From Desulfoprunum benzoelyticum (GTDB taxonomy: Bacteria; Desulfobacterota; Desulfobulbia; Desulfobulbales; Desulfocapsaceae): 64,000 nt of DNA. The notes under the pieces were generated by a model. That model did not search any database, had not been told where the DNA came from, and saw only the letters and a program-made list of their open reading frames with translations. Shown piece by piece: positions 1 through 58,488 of this stretch. The first letter of the stretch is position 1. Each line of letters begins with the position of its first letter. Location of the stretch: assembly GCF_014201505.1 (NCBI RefSeq), contig NZ_JACHEO010000003.1, forward strand, positions 62,001 through 126,000, written 5' to 3'. Position numbers and translations under genes: made by a program.

Positions 1-1
1 C

Positions 2-211
2 AATACCGGGCTATCGATCCCCGCCGCTGATCTGCCGAGGATCTTCGATCAATTTTACCGGGTGGAAAAGTCGCGCTCCCAGGCGTATGGCGGCTCGGGC
101 CTGGGCCTGACCATCGTCAAACGGATCGTCGAACTGCATGGCGGATCGATCGAGGCGGCCAGTCACGACGGCTGGATCACGTTCACCATTGTTTTACCCG
201 AGATGTCCTGA
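2..211 (+). CDS. Sensor histidine kinase, C-terminal fragment (gene enters from the left edge)
   Basis: This is the last 69 codons of a two-component sensor kinase whose 5' part lies outside the window. The ATP-binding HATPase_c domain is recognisable: an F-box-like IFDQFYRVE stretch, then the G2 box SGLGLTIVKRIVELHGG, then a terminal beta-strand ending in LPEMS. This is the pattern of PhoR/BaeS-type kinases, where ADP-binding glycines precede a helix reading IVKRIVELH. The signal sensed cannot be known because the sensor half is missing. pagP follows on the same strand after about 100 bases, so envelope stress is a possible theme, but that is inference only. Confidence 0.9.
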   Translation, partial: NTGLSIPAADLPRIFDQFYRVEKSRSQAYGGSGLGLTIVKRIVELHGGSIEAASHDGWITFTIVLPEMS

Positions 212-307
212 CTCGAAAGCCATATGTATCGCAGCGTTCCGACCAAATTCCGGCCGCCAGTTTGGCTGTGCCGCCAACACCTGGCATCCACTCGCCCTGT
301 CGCCGCC

Positions 308-919
308 ATGAGGTCGCTGTACCATCTCACTGTCATGATGCTGCTCTTCTGTCTGTTTGCAAACGGTGTAAACGCGAGCGAAAATGACAGTCTCTGGGAA
401 CGATCGCTTACGGCCGTGAACGACACCACTCCCTTCGCCATCGCTGATCCGGAAGACCAGGAAAAAGGCTGGTTCCACGGGGCCTGGGGCGGAATCAAAC
501 AGATATGGGACAAGGGAAATTCGGATTTCTACCTCTCCGGCCGATACTGGCACACCTCCTTGGGTTTCACGGACGAGGACCGGGACCGGTACGACGACTG
601 GGGACTCGGCGGCGGCTACGGCCGAAGCCTCACTGACGAGAAGGGCAACCAGCGGATGCTGTACGCCCTGATCGCCCAAGACTCCTTCGAAAAACCGATG
701 TACCTCACGGGCGTCGGCTGGTTGGCGCAATGGCGGATGCCCGGGGACCTGCGCGTCGGCGCCGGCTACTCGGTGGCAATCATTGCCAACAGCATCGCCA
801 CCGACTATATTCCTTTTCCCGCTCCGGCCCCCCTGGTGAGCATCGGCAACGAAAAAGTCTCCCTCTACTGCACCTTCTTCAATTCTATCCTCTACTTCTT
901 CGCGAAGACGAGCTTCTAG
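308..919 (+). CDS. pagP: Lipid A palmitoyltransferase PagP
   Basis: PagP is an outer-membrane beta-barrel enzyme that moves a palmitate from a phospholipid sn-1 position to lipid A. I start it at 308 because this gives a clean signal peptide (MRSLYHLT, then a hydrophobic run ending near VNAS); an in-frame ATG at 224 would add an un-signal-like leader. The mature protein has the family landmarks: SGRYWHTS (the catalytic His region), YDDWGLGGGYGRS, a DEKGN turn, and AQDSF, which carries the Asp-Ser pair matching Asp76-Ser77 of the E. coli enzyme. The chain ends in Phe, as outer-membrane barrels usually do. At 203 residues it is near the usual PagP length. PagP is best known from gamma- and beta-proteobacteria, so its presence here is notable. 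Confidence 0.88.
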   Translation: MRSLYHLTVMMLLFCLFANGVNASENDSLWERSLTAVNDTTPFAIADPEDQEKGWFHGAWGGIKQIWDKGNSDFYLSGRYWHTSLGFTDEDRDRYDDWGLGGGYGRSLTDEKGNQRMLYALIAQDSFEKPMYLTGVGWLAQWRMPGDLRVGAGYSVAIIANSIATDYIPFPAPAPLVSIGNEKVSLYCTFFNSILYFFAKTSF

Positions 920-1212
920 CCTTCCAGTGTTGCCGATTTGCGGCGAGAGACCGGCCAGTGCCGGCGAGGGTTTTCAGTCTGTTCCGGCCCGCAATCGACA
1001 TCACCTCTTCCACCTCCCGGGCGTTTTTTCGACGGCTGCGCGATGGTTTTCCATCCCTCTATCCATTGCAATGACCCGTCCGATTGATGGGGGGCCCCAC
1101 GGGATTCTCCCAATTTTTATGGTGCACGCCACTTAGCTGATGTTATATGTGATGATTAGCTTGGGACAGTCTTTGTGTGGCCAAGGGTTTCCTGGGCATA
1201 AAGGCTGAGCAG
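920..1212. other. Intergenic stretch without a recognised gene
   Basis: About 290 bases follow pagP. I see no convincing reading frame, no T-run terminator and no tRNA. Several overlapping frames are open but lack ribosome-binding sites and resemble no family. The GC level falls towards the right end, where the decayed accessory region begins. Confidence 0.5.
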
Positions 1213-1535
1213 ATGAATACGACCGTTCAGAGGTTGAAGGAAGAACAGACCGCGCGCCCTTGAACTGCTGAGCCGCAGCAAACCGGAGCTGCAGGCCCGG
1301 TTCGGCAGGCATGACCCGGCTGTCGTTGTTCGGCTCGACCGCCCGCGATACGGCGACCAGCGGCAGCGATGTCGATATTCTGGTAGCTTTCGACGGCCCG
1401 GCTACCCCCAAACGTTATTTCGGGGTGCAGTTCTGCCCCGAGGATCTGCTCGGCGGCCCGGTCGATCTGTTGACAGAAATGGCCCTGCGGTCGGAGTTGC
1501 GCCCCTACATCGAACAGGAGCGGGTCGATGTCTGA
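1213..1535 (+). pseudogene. Frameshifted MntA-like nucleotidyltransferase (antitoxin of a HepT-MntA pair)
   Basis: The parts of a minimal nucleotidyltransferase lie in three successive frames. The ATG at 1213 begins MNTTVQRLKEEQT and soon reaches a stop. The next frame, from about 1256, reads LELLSRSKPELQARFG. The third, from 1311, reads LSLFGSTARD followed by SGSDVDILVAF, the GSx(9-11)DxD active-site motif of the family, then a normal C-terminus to 1535. Together they rebuild one standard MntA-like protein of about 107 residues with two single-base frameshifts, so the gene is dead unless these are sequencing errors. A frame overlapping its stop (near 1526) starts MSDAKQRERR and stops after 25 codons; this is where a HepT toxin partner usually starts, but it is too short to name. 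Confidence 0.7.
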
Positions 1536-1822
1536 TGCCAAACAGCGCGAACGGCGTTTATCTCTCGGCGATTTGATATCGACATCCTCATCGCTCCGGT
1601 AATATGGCTTCAGGTGTTGAATCATCGGGCTTGCCTTTCGCATCGGAAAAAGCGGTTACGGATGCCGACGGACAAGTCATATGTGTCGTTGTAGGGATAA
1701 TCGAAAAAGCAACCGATGAACGGTTTAAAAGAAATGGAAGAGTTATTCGATGAGTTCTTGAGAAAGTACGAAAGCGGCGAGATCCATAAAGAAGAGTGGG
1801 AGACCAGGCCACCGGCAGAATT
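1536..1822. other. Decayed sequence, no intact gene recognised
   Basis: This stretch follows the broken MntA-like gene. Short open frames exist, for example an 80-codon frame from 1716, but none has a good ribosome-binding site or a family resemblance. A second frame reads SEPENRAVQSLAGIFGKR followed by VVFIRNDSDLEDRDF near 1830-1940, which looks like a real protein fragment but is bounded by stops. I read the region as gene debris. Confidence 0.4.
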
Positions 1823-2561
1823 ACACCTGTTCAGGTGTCGGAGCCCGAGAACCGTGCCGTCCAGTCTCTTGCAGGAATTTTCGGGAAGCGAGTCGTCTTC
1901 ATCCGCAACGACAGCGACCTCGAAGACAGGGATTTCGTTTGCTCCCCCTGAAGGGTGAGCAAAGACCGGCGGAAAGATATGTGTTGAATATAACTTCCCA
2001 CCCGAGGCCGGAAAGCACATCCCCACGTTGAGGGGGGCTGATAGTTACACCTTCAGTTACCCCCTCAACCATCAATGCAACCATCAACGAACCGCCACCT
2101 TGTCCGCGAGTTCTCCCCCCTCAGGGGTGCGAACTTCACTGCGCACCTATTCAAAAAAGGGGACAAAAAGGTGCGGATCAGAGTGCGGACCAACTGGCTT
2201 CAACCGATGGGTTGTCCATTCAAGGAAGACAGAAATGCGGAGGGCCTTTTTCCTGTGTTCGCTCGCCTTTTTGGGCGAGCGAAGAAAATCGCCCTGCTAA
2301 GGCGCTAGGGGCCTGCGGGGAACAATTCCCTCAATCTGAGGAAATGTTCAGCGGGGCCAGTTCTGGACTGGTAGAATCAGATAGACGAACGCTGAGCTCA
2401 ATTCTGAGCCGAGTGTTTACCAGACATCCCCCGCCCAAACGGCGGACACCCGAGACCCGGGGAGTCCTCGTTCACCCAAAAGGGCGAGCGAGATTGGTTC
2501 CCCTGTTCTGGTGAATCAAGATGGGTGACAGTCCAAAATTGGATTCTCATCAGGCTGAAGA

Positions 2562-2636
2562 AATCCCCACGCGCACCAGGACGTTCCGAATGGTTTTTCC
2601 CCTTTTTGGGGGGAAACTACGGAATCCCCACGCGCA
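2562..2636 (+). repeat. 14-bp direct repeat at 61-bp spacing, bracketing a hairpin
   Basis: AATCCCCACGCGCA is perfectly repeated at 2562-2575 and 2623-2636. Between the copies lies a nested hairpin (TTCCG/CGGAA outside, TTTCCCC/GGGGAAA inside). The arrangement looks like an insertion flanked by a duplication. A weaker relative (12 of 16) lies at 2674-2689. Confidence 0.6.
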
Positions 2637-2716
2637 GAGAGGTGCCGCTTTGATTCGCCTAAATAGGCGAACCAATCGACGAGCGCACCTTTGCGCTGGA
2701 TGAATACAAGGACGCT

Positions 2717-2786
2717 TCGGGCAACTTCCACCAATGGTGGAAGTTAAAATCCCCCATTGGGGGAAAGCTCCACCAGCTCGGGCAAC
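2717..2786 (+). repeat. 9-bp direct repeat at 61-bp spacing, bracketing two hairpins
   Basis: TCGGGCAAC is repeated at 2717-2725 and 2778-2786, again 61 bp apart. The segment between holds the perfect hairpins 2723-2745 and 2750-2764. Removing one repeat unit would join an upstream frame ending ALDEYKDASGN to a downstream frame starting SSTDTDHP without a stop. That is what a recent small insertion would leave, but protein identity is unknown, so this is only suggestive. Confidence 0.5.
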
Positions 2787-2919
2787 AGTTCCACCGACAC
2801 CGATCATCCCCACCGGCTAAGAGCAAGACAACGGCCAGGGCACAACAACCCGAGCTCACCGGCCGCACAGCCTGGCTGTCACCCTAACCTGTTCCTGAGA
2901 TCGATTACACATTTTTACA

Positions 2920-3123
2920 GATCAAATACACCACCGGCAGCGGATCGGCGCCATCCTGACGCCATCCTGACGCCGATACTGACCGCCCGGCCGCACTCCT
3001 ACAACCAGGTCATCACTACGCTGGACACGATCGCCACCACCGGCAGGAAACCACCACGGCCATACCGAGGCCCGATTTTTCGGCCCGCCGATCGATGTCA
3101 GCTCAAAGCTGAGCGCACATATC
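2920..3123 (-). pseudogene. Broken copy of a small membrane protein gene
   Basis: Plus-strand positions 2981-3070 align without gaps to 4221-4310 at about 70% identity by my count. On the minus strand both copies read alike: RSAG, then YGxGxFxPVVAI, then WLxxCGRxV, so the conserved frame is on the minus strand. In this copy a TAG stop interrupts the frame directly after the WL, and no good start is visible, so it appears dead. The intact-looking paralogue is at 4125-4349. Function is unknown; the central hydrophobic stretch suggests one membrane segment. Confidence 0.4.
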
Positions 3124-3166
3124 GTTTCCGGAGACGAAACCAAGAACTACTCTGCTGTCGCAAGTA

Positions 3167-3358
3167 ATGGAGTTATCGAACTTCCTCCAATTGAGGAAGT
3201 TAACGAGCTGGATTTTCAGCTCGGCTCACCTTGCCGGCGATCCGTCAATCACATCACTGAACGATTACAGACCGCTTGCCGGCGTGGGGTTCACTGACAC
3301 CATCGGTTTCACCGTACGCATGAAGGACGGTGCGGTCGAGGTCATCGACACCGAGTAA
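3167..3358 (+). pseudogene. Coding-like fragment, unknown
   Basis: An open frame on the plus strand ends at 3358. Its last 45 or so residues look protein-like (SLNDYRPLAGVGF, FTVRMKDGAVEVIDTE), while the first part of the frame runs through two hairpins. A neighbouring frame upstream also looks coding-like (SGDETKNYSAVASNG), so the piece may be the tail of a longer, frameshifted gene. The stop codon is part of the perfect hairpin 3355-3369. I do not recognise a family. Confidence 0.25.
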
Positions 3359-3896
3359 CGAATCGTTACCCCCCACCTGCCGGCCAACTTCATTATTACT
3401 GAAGTCAGGCAGGGTGAACGATACGTTCACCCTGGCGGGCCATCTTCGACATAGGTTGTCGATAGTATCTACCCCCTTCCATCTTGCCGACGGACGCCCG
3501 AGGGGGCCTTGACTCAGGGCATCCCTACTGCCGGCGGACACCCGAGGGAATCGTCGACCTGCCGGAGATGCACTTAATTTTTAGGAGCGAGATGGGCCGC
3601 CCGCAAAATTGCGGAGCATCGGGGGCGAGATGGTACCGTCCCGAAAAATGGGGGCTTGTGTCCGCCCCTTCCTTCGCTCGCCCAAATAGGAGGAGGGGCA
3701 AACACACAAGTCCCCAACAACCCCCGATGGGGGAACTTGTCTGACTGATACACTGGTATCCACCCCAGGTATCCACCAAAGAGCTGGTTACTGAAAAAGG
3801 GGCCCGTAGCTGTCAACACCTCGGCCAGAGCAAGGCGAATGTCTATCCCAAGCATGATTACGCCACTCCTGCAGGAAAGCACCCACTTCAATGTAT

Positions 3897-4112
3897 TCAG
3901 CGCTGCATCGCGGCCGGTTCCCTCCATTCGCGGATCTGATCGAGAATGGAGAAGTAGCGCTCCATCTTCCCGAGATCCACCGAGCCACCGTACACCTCCA
4001 CCATTCGTTCGATGGCAGAGGCTCGGTCTTCCAGGTCCATCACTTCATAGATCGAGTAGTCGCCAAAGAGATCGTGGGCGACATCGATCAGTTCTTCAAG
4101 CTCGTCCTTCAT
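3897..4112 (-). CDS. Small acidic protein, unknown
   Basis: This 71-residue frame begins at an ATG with a usable ribosome-binding site (GGAAAAGGAC just upstream). It encodes a mostly helical, charged protein beginning MKDELEELIDVAHDLFGDYS and containing EVMDLEDRASAIERMVEVYGG. There is no signal peptide and no membrane segment. It follows the small membrane gene at 4125-4349 by 12 bases on the same strand, so the two are probably one transcript. I recognise no family. The composition is unlike the surrounding debris, which supports it being a real gene, perhaps carried in by a mobile element. Confidence 0.5.
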   Translation of the reverse strand: MKDELEELIDVAHDLFGDYSIYEVMDLEDRASAIERMVEVYGGSVDLGKMERYFSILDQIREWREPAAMQR

Positions 4113-4124
4113 GTCCTTTTCCCA

Positions 4125-4349
4125 CTATATCAAAACCAGCAGGATGCCCGGCCATTCTGGCAATTCTGCCACAGGAGGAATCCAACTCGGCGGGACATTA
4201 GACACCCTGGTGCTGATCCGAACCACCCGGCCACAGTCATTCAACCATGCCGCCAACACAGCAGCCAGGATCGCCACCACGGGGCGGAAGACGCCACAGC
4301 CATACCAAAGCCTTTGCCCTGCCGACCGACCAGGGGGCAGCCTGATCAA
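4125..4349 (-). CDS. Small putative membrane protein, paralogue of the 2.9-3.1 kb remnant
   Basis: This is an open frame of 74 codons, with TTG at 4349 as the farthest possible start; the true start is uncertain. The centre reads VFRPVVAILAAVLAAWLND, a single hydrophobic segment preceded by Arg, followed by CGRVVRIS and a Pro-rich tail. A diverged copy in the same frame on the same strand lies about 1.24 kb away, and conservation of the membrane segment between the copies argues for past selection as protein. It resembles small phage or plasmid membrane proteins such as holins only in general layout, so no function is given. Confidence 0.4.
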   Translation of the reverse strand: MIRLPPGRSAGQRLWYGCGVFRPVVAILAAVLAAWLNDCGRVVRISTRVSNVPPSWIPPVAELPEWPGILLVLI

Positions 4350-4474
4350 TCTATCATCGAGGTCCAGGGGCCGGCGGTGGGATCAGTGCTTCCAAAAAAT
4401 GGGGGGAGTTCTCAGACTTGAGGACGGGGTCGGATGATAGAGGCGGGATGGGATAACCCCCTTGGAATGAAAAA

Positions 4475-4496
4475 ATGTGGGATAAATGTGGGATAA
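4475..4496. repeat. Tandem 11-bp repeat downstream of tRNA-Phe
   Basis: ATGTGGGATAA occurs twice in direct tandem (4475-4485 and 4486-4496), 58 bp past the tRNA-Phe CCA end. A pair of TGTAGCC repeats, also 11 bp apart, lies 59 bp past the tRNA-Lys CCA end. One-helical-turn direct repeats just downstream of a tRNA resemble arm-type sites of tyrosine recombinases, so these may be remains of an attachment region. Confidence 0.5.
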
Positions 4497-4507
4497 ACTA
4501 CTTTGAA

Positions 4508-4553: not shown

Positions 4554-4629
<76 letters not shown>

Positions 4630-4705: not shown

Positions 4706-5584
4706 TCAATCCTTGTCAAGGGTAAGGCCGCCCAGATCGAGATCGAAATCGAGTTCCGGATCGATATCCCCGGCTGAAGACGCCTTCCTGCCTGCCGTAT
4801 CCGGGCGGGTCTTCAATTCATCGATTCCCAGATCAAGGCTGAAATCGAGTTCGTCTTCGGCCTGATTCGCGACCTTCGATGTACCGCCTCCCAAGTCATC
4901 CATATCCAGATCAAGGCTGAAATCGAATTCGTCATCATCCTGCTTCGCAGCCGGCTGCGCCTCCATCGATTTACTCACGGCGAGGTGGGTATCACCTTCC
5001 AGGTCATCCGTATCCAGATCAAGACTGAAATCGAAACCGTCTTCTGATTTTTCCGTTACCGGCGGGAAGGTTTCTCTGGGCGGTGGAGCCAGATCGGAAA
5101 TATCGGCAAGCTCTTCCGGCAATTCCCGGCCGATCGTGGTCCCACTTCCAGGAGCCGCAACCGAACCGCCGAGAACCGGCCCCTTCAGATCATTCTCGAA
5201 TTGCGAAAGATCAATCGCAATATCCCCTTCTTCATCCTGGCCGGGTTCGAGCGGAAGTTCCATTCCATCCCTCAACCCGCTCTCATCACCGGTCTCCATC
5301 TGCAAGGAAGATCGCTCAGCGATGGTTTCAGGTTCCTGATCATCGAAAAGAATTTCGAGATCAGGATCCTGCACCTCGAAATCCTCGACGACCTCATCGC
5401 TTATTCTGATATCCTCGCCGTATGTCTTCGTCTCATCCAGATCCTGGATTTTCAGAAAGAGAGGGGCTGTGACGCTGAAAGCCGTGCCATGCACCAAATC
5501 CGCGACATTATTAAAATCTTTACCGCATTTGCCACATTTCGGCAGTTGGTCGAACGAAATGAATCCGCATTTTGGACAGCGCAT
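4706..5584 (-). CDS. Zinc-ribbon protein with acidic DFSLDLD repeats
   Basis: The 292-residue protein begins MRCPKCGFISFDQLPKCG and continues CGKDF, giving two CxxC knuckles of a short zinc ribbon. The rest is strongly acidic and low in complexity. The C-terminal 110 residues carry four near-copies of a motif: DFSLDLDTDDL, DFSLDLDMDDL, DFSLDLGIDEL and DFDLDLGGLTL. There is no signal peptide and no long hydrophobic segment, so it is probably cytoplasmic. Proteins with an N-terminal zinc ribbon and a disordered acidic tail are common in delta-proteobacteria, but their role is not established. It lies about 137 bases downstream of nadC on the same strand and just upstream of tRNA-Phe. Confidence 0.8.
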   Translation of the reverse strand: MRCPKCGFISFDQLPKCGKCGKDFNNVADLVHGTAFSVTAPLFLKIQDLDETKTYGEDIRISDEVVEDFEVQDPDLEILFDDQEPETIAERSSLQMETGDESGLRDGMELPLEPGQDEEGDIAIDLSQFENDLKGPVLGGSVAAPGSGTTIGRELPEELADISDLAPPPRETFPPVTEKSEDGFDFSLDLDTDDLEGDTHLAVSKSMEAQPAAKQDDDEFDFSLDLDMDDLGGGTSKVANQAEDELDFSLDLGIDELKTRPDTAGRKASSAGDIDPELDFDLDLGGLTLDKD

Positions 5585-53200: not shown

Positions 53201-55474
53201 ATGAACGAACAGTTAAAACAACTGCATAAAATCGACGAGAGGATCAACTACCTGCTGCAGATCAAGGATTTCAGCAACTGGGGCAACCTGGACGGCTTCA
53301 AATCCACCTGCGACCGCCTCAAACAGACCGTCTACGACCATACCGTCGAGGAACTGTCCGGCGAGATCCGCAAACTTCATGAGTCCATCAGCTTTCTCGA
53401 GGAACGGGCCGAGGAGCAACTGACCCCGATGGAACGGGTGCGAATCGTCCGCAGCGCCCAGCGCTTCAGCCTCAAGGACATCCTCGAAAACGTCTACGAG
53501 GACTATACCGAACTCGGCGGCGAGGGCGACGCCAATATCGACCCGGCAATGATCTGCGCCAAGGCCACCATCGTCCGCCGCATCAGGAACAAGCCCTACA
53601 CCGCCTCGGTCATGGTCATCGGCCAGGAGACCGGCCACGGCGAGGAGTTCCGCAACGGCGGCTCCTGCCGGCCCGAAGGCAACGCCAAGGCCAAGCGGTT
53701 CATGAAGGTCGCCGAGACCGAAGGCATCCCGATCCATTTCTACATCTTCACCCCCGGATCGTACCCGGTCGAGGAATATCCCGGCGCCGCCCAGCAGATC
53801 GCCCGCAACATCTACGCCATGACGAAGCTGCGGGTGCCGATGATCTCGCTGATTTCGGAGGGCGGTTCCGGCGGGGCCGAGGCCATCGGCCTGTCCGACT
53901 ACCGCCTGATGGTCACCCACGGTTACTACTCGGTGATCTCGCCGGAGGGCGCGGCCGCCATCGAAGGCCAGATCAGGGAAGGGTCGAAGGTGCCGAAGGA
54001 ACTGATCGAAGTCTGCGCCGACCGGCTGCGCCTCACCGCCTTCGACAACCTGAAGAACGGCACCATCGACCGGATCATCCACGAGCCGCCGCTCGGGGCG
54101 CGGCGCGACGACTTCAACTTCTTCGCCACCCTGCGCTCCGAGATGCTCCGGGCGACCGACCAGGTCGTCCTCTCTACCAAGAGCTTCCGCGCCTTCCGGG
54201 CCCGGGAGATCGGCCGTAAAAAGAACACCGCGGAGGCTCAGGAACTGCAGGTCGAGGTCCCCTGGGATCTCAATCGCGACGAGGTCAGGCGACTGCTGGC
54301 CCAGCGGTCGAAAAAATATCTGAGCCTGGCCCGGCATGGGTTCACCGGCACCCCCGGCACCGGCGCCCACCTCGCCCACCAGACCTGGACCGGGGTCGAG
54401 AAGGTCTACTACACCCTGCGCTACGACATCCTGAAAAATCAGAAACGGCAGGTGCACAAGGTCATCAAGGACGTGTCGGGCGAAGGTTCGGTGATGCTCA
54501 AGCGGATCAGCGAACCGTTCCACGCCGTCGTCAATTTCTGGTCCGACAAGAAAAAGGGCCGGAAGCCGGTGCCGCGCCTTGCCGCCCCGCCGATTCCCGG
54601 CCAGGACAACGGCCGGATCATCGATCCCCTCGAACTGACCGACACCTACACCAGTCCGCTGGCCAACGAGGACCGGACCGTCACCTGCCCCAACGCCGCC
54701 CGTTACGGCTGCAAGGACCTGTGGATCCCCGATCTCTACGGCGAATTCGCCGGGGTCTGCGAGACCTGCGGCCACCACTTTCCACTCGAGCACCAGTGGT
54801 ACCTGAAGAACATCTTCGACCCCCGTTCGATCAAGTTCTTCAACAACGAGATCACCTCCGGCAATCCCCTGGAGTACACCGGCTTTACCGAGCGGCTGGC
54901 GGTATCGAAGAAGAAGACCGGCAGGAATTCCGGCAACATGACCTTCCATGCCCAGGTCAACGGCATCCACATCATCGTCGCCATGCTTTACTCCGATTTC
55001 CGCAACGGCACCGTCGGCGCGGCCGAGGGCGAGAAGTTCGTCCAGGCCTGCCAGCTCGCGAAGCGGAAGAAGCGGCCGTTCCTCGCCTACATCCACACCA
55101 CCGGCGGCATCCGCATCCAGGAGGGCACGCTCGGCGTGGTCCAGATGCCGAAATGCACGATGGCGGTCCGAGAGTACATCGACGCCGGCGGACTCTACAT
55201 CGTCGTCTACGACAACAACTCGTACGCCGGACCGGTCGCCTCCTTCCTCGGCTGTTCGCCGTACCAGTTCGCCATCCGCTCCAGCCGGGTCGGTTTCGCC
55301 GGGCCGCGGGTCATCCGTGAAACGACCGGGGTCGATATCCCGCCGGATTACCACTCCGCCCGCAACGCCTTGAAACGAGGGCATATCCAGGGCATATGGG
55401 ACCGACGGGAGTTCCGTCGCAACCTCCATAAGGCCCTGCTGACGATGGGCAGTCCGAGCCTGTATTACCGGTAG
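53201..55474 (+). CDS. Fused acetyl-CoA carboxylase carboxyltransferase (alpha-beta, AccA-AccD)
   Basis: A single 757-residue chain combines both carboxyltransferase subunits. The first half is AccA-like: IRKLHESISFLEERAEEQ, then VMVIGQETGHGEEFRNGG, ISLISEGGSGGAEAIG and YYSVISPEGAAAI. The second half, from about residue 480, is AccD-like with a zinc ribbon whose first Cys pair is widely spaced (CPNAARYGC) and whose second is normal (CETCGHHF). The substrate region IHTTGGIRIQEGTLGVVQMP and SFLGCSPYQFAIRSSRVGFAG follow. In most bacteria accA and accD are separate; the alpha-then-beta order here differs from the beta-then-alpha order of plant-type and propionyl-type chains. It follows accC by 27 bases. 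Confidence 0.92.
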   Translation: MNEQLKQLHKIDERINYLLQIKDFSNWGNLDGFKSTCDRLKQTVYDHTVEELSGEIRKLHESISFLEERAEEQLTPMERVRIVRSAQRFSLKDILENVYEDYTELGGEGDANIDPAMICAKATIVRRIRNKPYTASVMVIGQETGHGEEFRNGGSCRPEGNAKAKRFMKVAETEGIPIHFYIFTPGSYPVEEYPGAAQQIARNIYAMTKLRVPMISLISEGGSGGAEAIGLSDYRLMVTHGYYSVISPEGAAAIEGQIREGSKVPKELIEVCADRLRLTAFDNLKNGTIDRIIHEPPLGARRDDFNFFATLRSEMLRATDQVVLSTKSFRAFRAREIGRKKNTAEAQELQVEVPWDLNRDEVRRLLAQRSKKYLSLARHGFTGTPGTGAHLAHQTWTGVEKVYYTLRYDILKNQKRQVHKVIKDVSGEGSVMLKRISEPFHAVVNFWSDKKKGRKPVPRLAAPPIPGQDNGRIIDPLELTDTYTSPLANEDRTVTCPNAARYGCKDLWIPDLYGEFAGVCETCGHHFPLEHQWYLKNIFDPRSIKFFNNEITSGNPLEYTGFTERLAVSKKKTGRNSGNMTFHAQVNGIHIIVAMLYSDFRNGTVGAAEGEKFVQACQLAKRKKRPFLAYIHTTGGIRIQEGTLGVVQMPKCTMAVREYIDAGGLYIVVYDNNSYAGPVASFLGCSPYQFAIRSSRVGFAGPRVIRETTGVDIPPDYHSARNALKRGHIQGIWDRREFRRNLHKALLTMGSPSLYYR

Positions 55475-55589
55475 CAACGGCAAGGATATCAAGGCGGAAA
55501 ACGGCGGTGATTTTTCCCGATCGAGCGGCATTCGGGCTTGACGTCACCACCGGCCTGTGATACATACATGGCACCAATGCCACAGGTGA

Positions 55590-55665
55590 GGGCCGTTAGC
55601 TCAATTGGTAGAGCATCTGACTCTTAATCAGCAGGTCCCCGGTTCGACTCCGGGACGGCCCACCA
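55590..55665 (+). tRNA. tRNA-Lys (CTT)
   Basis: A 76-base cloverleaf with encoded CCA. The acceptor arms are GGGCCGT and ACGGCCC, the D arm is GCTCAATTGGTAGAGC, the anticodon loop is ACTCTTAAT with anticodon CTT, and the T arm is CCCGG TTCGACT CCGGG. It lies 115 bases after the accA-accD gene. To its right the base composition changes to lower GC, so its 3' end is the probable border of an accessory region. Confidence 0.97.
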
Positions 55666-55673
55666 GTAAAATC

Positions 55674-55707
55674 AAGCACTTACCCTTAATCGGGTAAGTG
55701 CTTTTTT
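55674..55707 (+). terminator. Rho-independent terminator of tRNA-Lys
   Basis: AAGCACTTACCC, a short loop and GGGTAAGTGCTT are followed by TTTTT. The outer arm and the flanks (TCAAGCACTTA before, TTTTTTGTTT after) match those behind tRNA-Phe, although the inner stems differ. Confidence 0.9.
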
Positions 55708-55723
55708 GTTTTCAAGGCCTCCA

Positions 55724-55741
55724 TGTAGCCCCTGTGTAGCC
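55724..55741. repeat. 11-bp-spaced TGTAGCC direct repeat downstream of tRNA-Lys
   Basis: TGTAGCC occurs at 55724-55730 and 55735-55741, one helical turn apart and 59 bp past the tRNA CCA. It is the counterpart of the tandem repeat behind tRNA-Phe and may be a relic of recombinase arm sites. Confidence 0.5.
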
Positions 55742-56222
55742 AGAATTCATATACTTGACCTTTGAACACGCGAAATCTTTTCAGGAATAGTCTTAACTTG
55801 CGGCTTTGCTTAAATGGTTAAGGTTGGCAGCAACATCCTCTTTTATTTTTTCTACAAGATTTAACCACTCTGAAGAAGAAGGAATTTACCGAAAAAGACA
55901 TTCATCGGTTGATATTGACCTCATTGCTGAATGACCGCCGGTTGGTCCAATGCCGGTTATTGGTTCAGTGTAAAAATATTTGCGAAAGTTTTCCGGGAAA
56001 GGTAGCTTTGATGCATAAGATCGGATGGCCATTCGTTGGACGGGGCTTTTTGGGGAAGCCCGAAGAAGGCGACCTTATCACCTCTCATCCCATCACCCAC
56101 CCCAGCACTCCTCTTCGCGTCCCGTCGGTACATTGCCTGATGACGATTTTTGAGCTTATGCTGGATTTGCTTGGCCGGACATCGATGTCAGTGAGTTCAC
56201 ACCAACCGTTTCGGAGAATCGC
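55742..56222. other. Accessory intergenic stretch after tRNA-Lys
   Basis: About 480 bases of lower-GC DNA. An open frame of 117 codons from 55909 overlaps the nfeD start and resembles no family, so I do not call it. No integrase or phage gene is seen. Confidence 0.4.
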
Positions 56223-56675
56223 ATGGACGTGCAATACTGGCATTGGCTTGTTTTTGGATTGATCCTCATCATTGCCGAGGTCTTTATCCCAAGCTTCACC
56301 ATTTTCTGGTTCGGTCTCGGAGCGTTGGCCGTAGGCGGCATTCTCTGGATTTCGCCCATGGAACTGACTGCGCAACTCCTGCTCTGGGCATTTTTTTCCG
56401 CCCTCCTTACCGTGTTCTGGTTCGTGGTCATGAAACCGCGTATGCTCGACAAGACCCGGGCCGGCATGTCGCGTGAGGCCCTTCTCGGGGAAACAGGGCA
56501 AGTCATCAGCGTGCCGGAAGGCGATCGCAGGGGTATAGTCCGTTTCACAAAACCGCTCTTGGGTTCCGACGAATGGTCATTTATCTGCGACGAACCCGTT
56601 CAGCTCGGAGACCGGGTCCAGATCCGCGACGTGTCAGGCAACACCCTCATCGTCGCTCCGAAAATTTACAGATAA
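56223..56675 (+). CDS. NfeD-like membrane protein (short form)
   Basis: A 150-residue NfeD protein. Its two N-terminal hairpin membrane segments (WHWLVFGLILIIAEVFIPSF and LTAQLLLWAFFSALLTVFW) are followed by a C-terminal OB fold (LLGETGQVISVPEGDRRGI to RVQIRDVSGNTLIVAPKI). A GGAGAA site precedes the ATG. Short NfeD proteins work beside stomatin-like SPFH proteins, and such a gene follows 36 bases later, so they form an operon of membrane microdomain proteins. Codon use is less GC-rich than the core genes to the left. Confidence 0.9.
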   Translation: MDVQYWHWLVFGLILIIAEVFIPSFTIFWFGLGALAVGGILWISPMELTAQLLLWAFFSALLTVFWFVVMKPRMLDKTRAGMSREALLGETGQVISVPEGDRRGIVRFTKPLLGSDEWSFICDEPVQLGDRVQIRDVSGNTLIVAPKIYR

Positions 56676-56711
56676 CAAACGTTTCATTCTTTTTTTTCAA
56701 GAGAGGTTCGT

Positions 56712-57572
56712 ATGTTCAGTCCCGGCTTGACCATTGTCATTTTTCTGCTTTTTCTGGTCATCATCACCATCAGCATGGGGGTTCGCATCGTTCCCCAGGG
56801 GTTCAAATTCGTGGTGCAGCGTTTGGGAAAGTACCATTCCACCCTCGCCCCCGGTCTGAACATCATCATCCCCTTCATGGACACTGTTGCATACAAGGTG
56901 ACCACCAAGGACATCGTCATGGACATCCCCTCACAGGAGGTCATCACCCGTGACAACGCGGTCATCGTCACCAACGCCGTGGCCTACATCAACATCGTGT
57001 CTCCGGAGAAGGCCGTGTACGGAGTCGAGGATTTTCGCATGGCCATCCAGACCCTGGTTCAGACGTCGTTGCGATCCATCATCGGCGAAATGGATCTTGA
57101 CGACGCCCTGTCCTCTCGAGACAGAATCAAAGCCAGACTGAAGGAAACCATCTCCGACGACATTTCGGACTGGGGTATTACACTCAAGACTGTTGAGATT
57201 CAGGACATCAACCCATCCGACACCATGCAGCACGCAATGGAGGAGCAGGCCGCTGCCGAACGGGCCCGCCGGGCTACGGTGACCCGGGCCGAAGGCGACA
57301 AGACTGCGGCCATCCTGCAAGCCGACGGACGCCTTGAGGCTTCCCGCCGTGACGCCGAGGCCAAGGTCGTGCTGGCAGAAGCCGATCAGGCAGCCATCAA
57401 CAAGGTTGCCGAAGCCAGCAAGAGCGGAGAATTGCCCCTGGTTTTCCTGCTCGGCCAGCGCTACGTGGACGCCATGCGCTCCATGGCCGAGGCGAACAAC
57501 GCCAAGATCGTGGTCCTTCCGGCCGATCTGCCGGCAGCCGTGCGTGGGATCATGGGCACGCTGGGGAAATAG
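56712..57572 (+). CDS. SPFH/band 7 (stomatin-like, QmcA-type) membrane protein
   Basis: The 286-residue protein has one N-terminal membrane helix (LTIVIFLLFLVIITISMGV) and a band 7 domain: RIVPQGFKFVVQRLGKYHST, then APGLNIIIPFMDTV, NAVIVTNAVAYINI, and QTSLRSIIGEMDLDDALSSR. A coiled-coil end rich in Ala, Glu and Arg follows (EEQAAAERARRATVTRAEGD). It oligomerises in the membrane and is thought to organise protease or transport complexes with NfeD. Confidence 0.93.
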   Translation: MFSPGLTIVIFLLFLVIITISMGVRIVPQGFKFVVQRLGKYHSTLAPGLNIIIPFMDTVAYKVTTKDIVMDIPSQEVITRDNAVIVTNAVAYINIVSPEKAVYGVEDFRMAIQTLVQTSLRSIIGEMDLDDALSSRDRIKARLKETISDDISDWGITLKTVEIQDINPSDTMQHAMEEQAAAERARRATVTRAEGDKTAAILQADGRLEASRRDAEAKVVLAEADQAAINKVAEASKSGELPLVFLLGQRYVDAMRSMAEANNAKIVVLPADLPAAVRGIMGTLGK

Positions 57573-57846
57573 CGCAGACAACCTTACGCCCCCACCTTGT
57601 CTGAAAAGAACATTTCGCTGGTTCAAGCCAAGGTATCAGTTCCATTCTCGATGGCTGAAACTGAGGAAGAACCGGCAGTAAAAGAGACCAAGTCCATTGA
57701 TCCAACTAAATGTCAATCTTCTCTCCGCCCGTATCGAGAAGCGGGGAGCCCTCGTCCTGGGTGTGTCCTTTCGGCAAGCCTCCATGACCCCGAAAAAGTG
57801 ATCTACTACAATCTGTACCCTTCTTATAACCAATGGAGGATTAACG

Positions 57847-57996
57847 ATGGAACAATCACCAGCCTTTCCCCCTGCGACACTGCCACAAATTCAATCCAGA
57901 TTTGCCGACTGGCGCCAAACCAAGCACCACCCAGGCCGTATCCCGGAAAATTTATGGGCGGCAGCGGTGATGCCGAGTCAGGAGTATTCCCTCTGA
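57847..57996 (+). CDS. Insertion-sequence accessory ORF remnant (IS66 TnpA-like)
   Basis: A 49-residue frame with a strong GGAGG site: MEQSPAFPPATLPQIQSRFA, then DWRQTKHHPGRIPENLWAAAV. The W-R-x-x-x-x-x-x-RIPxxLWxxAV pattern is like the N-terminus of IS66-type accessory proteins (TnpA). The protein stops early and no TnpB or TnpC follows, so it is a stub of a lost insertion sequence. After it comes GGGGACAGATTTA, a common transposon-related phrase, but no inverted ends are seen. Confidence 0.5.
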   Translation: MEQSPAFPPATLPQIQSRFADWRQTKHHPGRIPENLWAAAVMPSQEYSL

Positions 57997-58488
57997 GGAA
58001 CAGAGGGGACAGATTTATATACGGAAGGCAGCACAACTACATTGGATTTTAGCAGCGACTAGAGTCCAGATATCTCCTATCAGGGTTGGCCAATACACCT
58101 CCAAAATGTCCAGGAAACATCTTCAAAAGACAACATCGGCGATAATTGACTATTGCCGATGTAAATCTCAACGTTGATCCTATACAATACTGTCACGATA
58201 TCTGATAAAATGCCTAACGCTTCCCACAGGAGTCGTTGAACCTTTTTCAACAGCCCCAGTGGTCCGTAGAGTCAGCAACAGGCTCTGACGGGACTGACCG
58301 ATAAAATATTAGGTAGATTAATCTTTTCGGCATGTATTATGGCCAAACACAAATATTACTCCAGCTCTGCCTATATTTGTGTACCTAACAACGACAAAAA
58401 TGCCCTACGATCAATGACCGTTATTGATAATGGTCTGGAGAGGCCATCCGTTTTACGGATTAACCCTAACTGAAGATAATGATACACT
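57997..58488. other. AT-richer intergenic stretch with one hairpin
   Basis: About 490 bases without a recognised gene. A near-perfect hairpin at 58133-58162 (arms ACATCGGCGATA/TATTGCCGATGT, six-base loop, one G-T pair) is not followed by a T-run. The rest is low-complexity AT-richer DNA, consistent with insertion-sequence debris. Confidence 0.5.

Follow-up and report, generated by a model that had tools for sequence, protein, structure and literature searches.

What does a 1.9-kb stretch of DNA that is crowded with short perfect hairpins stand for, and does it belong to any class of element that is found elsewhere? This question is raised by a locus of Desulfoprunum benzoelyticum (contig NZ_JACHEO010000003.1, positions 62,001–126,000), of which the whole stretch of 64,000 nucleotides is called the window in the following. 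The hairpin field is placed between a PagP gene (224–919, PF07017) and tRNA-Phe (4554–4629). Its features are given below by window position—unstranded unless a strand is named.

1823–3760: hairpin field (rha-type palindrome field), with scattered rha-type 12-mers on to about 4400
1823–1838: palindrome ACACCTG tt CAGGTGT
1938–1963: palindrome TTTGCTCCCCCT ga AGGGTGAGCAAA
2109–2135: imperfect palindrome AGTTCTCCCCCC tca GGGGTGCGAACT
2258–2283: palindrome TTCGCTCGCC tttttg GGCGAGCGAA; a cousin, AACGCTCGCC cgtttt GGCGAGCGTT, lies in phage field L549
2325–2345: palindrome ATTCCCTCA atc TGAGGAAAT, with the core CCTCAATCTGAG common to fields L142 and L549
2396–2409: GCTCA attc TGAGC
2467–2492: imperfect palindrome CTCGTTCACCC aaaa GGGCGAGCGAG
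2531–2543: GTCCAAAATTGGA, a core common to rha palindromes (L462) and fields L526 and L488, also L142
2596–2616: palindrome TTTCCCC tttttgg GGGGAAA
2650–2675: palindrome TTGATTCGCCTA aa TAGGCGAACCAA, containing the perfect stem 2654–2671
2723–2745: palindrome AACTTCCACC aat GGTGGAAGTT, identical to the LPPMVEV-encoding palindrome of rha genes
2750–2765: palindrome TCCCCC att GGGGGA, with 12-mers in common with rha palindromes
2963–3110, plus strand: divergent copy of a ~228-bp repeat unit that occurs in the C17 integrative element (second copy at 4203–4312)
3179–3201: palindrome AACTTCCTC caatt GAGGAAGTT, within a rha-like stretch (...GVIELPPIEEVN...)
3204–3223: palindrome CGAGCTG gatttt CAGCTCG
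3355–3369: palindrome GTAACG aat CGTTAC
3387–3405: palindrome ACTTCA ttattac TGAAGT
3410–3434: palindrome CAGGGTGAACG ata CGTTCACCCTG
3446–3462: palindrome TCGACA taggt TGTCGA
3601–3614: palindrome CCGCAA aa TTGCGG, with the core CGCAAAATTGCG common to rha palindromes (L466, L467) and fields L526 and L528
3721–3735: CCCCCGATGGGGGAA, common to rha palindromes (L320, L307)
4554–4629, minus strand: tRNA-Phe, border of the variable island

Hairpin excess

A sequence-only reading of this DNA had counted eight perfect stems with 7 or more base pairs between 1823 and 3740, and all eight are present—7 bp long at 1823–1838, 2596–2616, and 3204–3223, 8 bp at 2654–2671, 9 bp at 3179–3201, 10 bp at 2258–2283 and 2723–2745, and 11 bp at 3410–3434. 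Dinucleotide-preserving shuffles (n = 200) yield a mean of 0.76 such stems and a maximum of 5; none of the 200 reaches 8. For longer stems, five of at least 8 bp are observed versus a shuffle mean of 0.15, and three of at least 10 bp versus 0.015. With mismatches allowed, 18 hairpins compare with a shuffle mean of 3.8. The density is similarly rare within the genome: at least five stems of at least 8 bp occur in just 7 of 2,650 segments of 2 kb, in a control that covers 1.43 Mb or 38% of the own genome. Two of these seven are the hairpin field itself; the others are a CRISPR array (C18), GC-rich coding DNA (C1, C16), and AT-rich DNA (C1), and no second stretch of the same kind as the field was found in this 38%.

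The non-random density proposed by the earlier reading hence stands, whereas two of its candidate explanations—a large structured RNA and a family of mobile mini-hairpins—are disfavored, and the link to rha genes described below was unseen by it. RNA fold z-scores are strongly negative for 2001–2400, 2601–2800, and 3201–3800, and this on both strands, as is expected of palindromes in DNA; of the Rfam 15 covariance models, nothing but the tRNA, outside the field, is matched. The genome contains 19 copies of the most frequent arm, TTCGCTCGCC; outside the field, no second arm lies beside it among the site contexts listed, which are part of the 19. For the patterns tried, no hairpin copies appear elsewhere in the own genome. 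The earlier reading placed neighboring hairpins roughly 55–80 bases apart between about 2200 and 2740 and had them stop near 3740; weaker ones occupy the gaps, and rha-type motifs run on to about 4400. Nor do the hairpins strictly avoid the gene remnants, as had been claimed, since those at 3098–3112 and 3179–3201 sit within a protein-like frame. The protein-like pieces (3095–3358) have no relatives in Pfam, PHROG, IMG/VR, or GTDB, and a six-frame read-through of the field gave no match to Pfam or PHROGs. A weak match of the pieces to a major head protein was dropped as chance.

A palindrome inside phage rha genes

When IMG/VR was scanned for the palindromic sequence AACTTCCNCC..GGNGGAAGTT, 49 contigs were returned, and most matches lie inside one gene, where the encoded protein reads ...ERLAERGVI-QLPPMVEV-KNHLGQ.... 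This gene encodes the antirepressor-type phage regulator Rha (PF09669)—a very common phage regulator. Among 258 genomes of the window's order, the same palindrome occurs in one, namely in the window field only.

The rha palindrome consists of arms of about 10 bp around 2–4 bases; its place in the gene is fixed and its sequence varies between phages. For the first IMG/VR subfamily, it is found at the same place in 61 of 61 parsed genes, a count by locus in which the same contig or close strains may recur. Here, base changes are paired across the dyad and alter the amino acid as well: CCA..GTG, CCC..GGG, CCG..GCG, and CCT..GAG correspond to V, G, A, and E in LPPMVEV, LPPMGEV, LPPMAEV, and LPPTEEV, respectively. 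A second subfamily carries other palindromes at the equivalent place in 18 of 26 distinct genes, as compared with 19% of control stretches. Within the window's own order, 22 of 23 rha genes bear a palindrome at domain residue ~29–34, nearly all differing in sequence and with arms of up to 17 bp. It is also present in rha of Gordonia phage Malisha and of Bacteroides, Paenibacillus, and Campylobacter phages, and slightly displaced in rha of a Lactobacillus phage; at the fixed place, it is absent from the Fusobacterium and Enterococcus examples and weak in P22.

Hairpin centers cluster in a single region of the Rha domain. Against a null of synonymously recoded versions of these proteins, the best hairpin scores stand out strongly: scores of at least 10 are reached by 65% of the Desulfobacterota rha set versus 0.4% after recoding, and by 23% versus 0.5% and 11% versus 0.1% in the other two sets. 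Watson–Crick pairing amounts to 73–100% through pair 10 and falls at pair 11. Among mispairs, G.T (19) is not favored over A.C (34), which speaks for DNA rather than sense mRNA.

In the predicted Rha fold (pLDDT 93), helices precede a β-hairpin of two strands; the palindrome covers the codons for the last part of the third main helix and for the first β-strand. Foldseek returned weak matches only, among them several MarR/PadR-type regulators. Within the domain, the palindrome falls in aligned sequence without insertion, and hence simple insertion—as the mobile mini-hairpins of the earlier reading would require—does not fit. Rickettsia palindromic elements are likewise palindromes in coding genes, but they arise as insertions, which sets the rha palindrome apart from them. 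Fields adjoining intact rha genes were considered and rejected, as 80 flanks of such genes carry at most three strong hairpins per 800 bp.

Some further palindromes in phages were observed on the side. In Corynebacterium phage StAB (L290, 1495–1570), the palindrome GGGTCGGATTTCAAATCCGACCC directly follows the antirepressor gene and precedes a tRNA-like 3′ half. TTCGCC..GGCGAA palindromes occur twice in single phage ORFs, at L184 3544–3630 and L230 8221–8322 (GSPTLANLFS, RSPMANDL); these ORFs might represent another class of genes that contain palindromes.

Link between the field and rha genes

To connect field and genes, a 12-mer library was built from 99 distinct rha palindromes. It matches the field at six places (2531, 2722, 2750, 3179, 3602, and 3721), compared with a background of 0.145 per 2 kb of the sampled own genome, and clusters of three matches within 1 kb are found in the field alone in 1.43 Mb. 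Hereby, the two best matches (2723 and 3179) are not independent, as they led to rha in the first place, so that the comparison is partly circular; the rha genes behind the matches at 2531 and 3602 were retrieved afterwards in a search of the family. Some window palindromes have no match to a known rha palindrome. Several of the field palindromes share identical 12- to 23-mers with those of rha genes (PF09669), and the membership of the field palindromes in the class carried by rha genes is well supported. They differ in setting: in rha, the palindrome occupies one fixed place in a gene, whereas in the field palindromes stand alone, many together, in non-coding DNA.

A mere succession of decayed rha genes does not account for the field, as the stretches separating the palindromes are not matched by Rha protein profiles; just 3150–3208 scores above controls, at 5.5 bits. 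Decayed rha genes as the identity of the field were rejected on this basis, the Rha similarity around palindromes being confined to that one spot. A rha gene is not detectable in the own genome.

The self-complementarity of the palindromes suggests a rather improbable alternative at the RNA level. The field would putatively be transcribed, and its RNA would pair with rha mRNAs carrying the same palindrome and silence them. Two RNAs that contain one and the same palindrome are able to pair through it, the structure is strong on both strands, and cores are common to fields and to rha palindromes of unrelated phages. The Rfam result and the missing G.T bias of the rha palindromes argue against it.

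Comparable fields elsewhere

Comparable stretches are present in a provirus (L142) and in the Acinetobacter plasmid pANC7912.3. A scan for two neighboring palindromes led to a Psychrobacter prophage (L529), an IMG/VR phage (L549), Deltaproteobacteria (L526, L528), a clostridial MAG (L534), and a Novosphingobium MAG (L494); most other fields thus come from a scan seeded with two palindromes, and the additional hairpins around these are independent. Hairpin counts exceed every shuffle for L142, L529, L549, L534, and L528. The field of pANC7912.3 is borderline (1 of 100 shuffles), and for an A. pittii plasmid (L488) the hairpin excess is not significant by count. Independent fields have 12-mers in common far above chance, mostly palindromic cores. 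With hairpins in excess of shuffled sequence and cores shared with rha palindromes above the genome background, the stretch fits a class that we propose here, the rha-type palindrome field. A prior description of the palindrome in rha genes or of non-coding fields was not found in the open-licence papers searched. As a side observation, about a dozen Bartonella loci (L489–L533) show a pattern of CCTCA..TGAGG and TCCAA..TTGGA that is repeated within genomes.

A hairpin-pair segment of the Acinetobacter plasmid L292 is missing from its relative L487 with the flanks intact, implying that such units come and go. Edwardsiella phage PVN06 has a tandem of two partial rha pieces, whose palindromes lie ~120 bp apart. 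Both observations, together with the mosaic nature of rha genes, would be in line with recombination or template-switch sites—palindromes as exchange points that reshuffle rha domains, with fields as left-over or donor copies. Nevertheless, there is no conserved core of the kind a recombinase needs, and the rha palindrome is located inside the domain rather than at its border. We consider this explanation highly improbable.

A decayed island at tRNA-Phe

The surroundings of the field contain relics of mobile DNA. A ~228-bp tandem repeat of an integrative element located at tRNA-Leu on contig C17 has two diverged copies in the window (2963–3110 and 4203–4312). On C17 itself, arrays of this repeat occupy 54350–58180 (L009 7350–11180) at the distal end of the element; judged by sequence, its genes include one for a tyrosine integrase-like protein and one for a large protein that resembles a primase. 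The site beside tRNA-Phe is variable among relatives by synteny: they carry a tyrosine integrase-like or an IS110-type transposase-like gene there (again named from sequence) and no field, and DNA homologous to the field is absent from 58 relatives. No exact repeat (at least 12 bases) of the tRNA-Phe 3′ end is present in window positions 1–4500. Relic repeats, gene remnants, and the variable site mark the stretch, as judged from sequence, as part of a decayed, foreign mobile island adjoining tRNA-Phe.

Further inhabitants of this region may be mentioned. For the PagP-type lipid A acylation protein (224–919, PF07017) at the island border, a search of four congeners gave no match. An MNT-type nucleotidyltransferase remnant (PF01909) at 1311–1535 is perhaps the relic of a toxin–antitoxin pair. 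In congener G003, a homologue of a 71-aa window ORF (3897–4112, minus strand) lies next to tRNA-Phe (L098, ~5384–5560), near an IS110-type transposase-like gene.

An island of this kind immediately suggests the main rival explanation: a passive graveyard, in which repeated phage insertion and decay at an integration hot spot left palindromic pieces of many rha-type genes behind that are functionless now. The decayed genes and relic C17-element repeats fit such a history, as do the tandem partial rha pieces of PVN06 and a decayed rha piece that lies near the field of L142. On the contrary, the sequence between the palindromes is unlike rha, many palindromes remain perfect, and with a few tens of bases from one to the next, they lie too densely for each to stem from a separate gene remnant. 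In addition, fields occur within phage genomes and on small plasmids, beyond decayed loci. Taken together, we regard the graveyard as somewhat unlikely.

Possible role of the field

The explanation that we tentatively prefer, although with slightly less than even confidence, is that the field is an array of rha-class palindromes that would act as dyad sites or decoys. Each palindrome would be a DNA dyad of ~22–24 bp linked to one Rha type, most simply a putative binding site of that Rha, and the field would gather many such putative sites. As a decoy array, it might titrate—or sense—the Rha regulators of incoming phages; alternatively, it might be a control region that several phages can use. 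The function is thus inferred from sequence, and the window field may be just the remnant of such an array.

A broader version of this idea is speculative and in our view unlikely: the hypervariable dyad might be an identity tag of rha, and arrays of tags from many phages, located on phages, plasmids, and islands, might bind or pair with the incoming Rha systems, forming a sequence-specific layer of defence or hijacking against phage antirepressors. If the rha palindrome varies between phages with its symmetry kept despite amino-acid changes, this would reflect a strong, so far unexplained constraint. If non-coding arrays gather such palindromes, they may record or exploit contacts between phages, plasmids, and hosts in a similar way to CRISPR spacers.

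Relation to known palindromic arrays

Among known systems, the stem-loop type of TIGR array comes close in architecture, as it consists of tandem, variable, and consistently palindromic units with paired spacers and box C/D motifs, is accompanied by a Tas gene, and occurs in phages and phage-related DNA (PMC12045711). If the field were such an RNA-guided system, a Nop-domain Tas protein would be expected, yet a PF01798 search of the own genome gave no match—a Tas protein may be too divergent for this profile. TIGR also does not predict that cores are common to rha genes. We hence deem this assignment extremely improbable, despite the tandem, variable, and palindromic layout of both.

The remaining systems differ more clearly. 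REP/BIME-type families are clustered short intergenic palindromes as well, with one consensus repeated across the genome; the palindromes of the field are, in contrast, nearly all different and form the sole cluster in the part of the genome that was read. Compared by eye with integron attC arrays, the hairpins of the field are shorter and stand closer together than cassettes allow. CRISPR arrays likewise hold phage-related sequence in an array, but a CRISPR-type constant repeat with regular spacers was not found in the field, which lacks spacer periodicity. The CRISPR array of the own genome (C18:119–560, L044) consists of seven units with the repeat GTCGCCCCCCGCGCGGGGGGCGTGGATTGAAAC.
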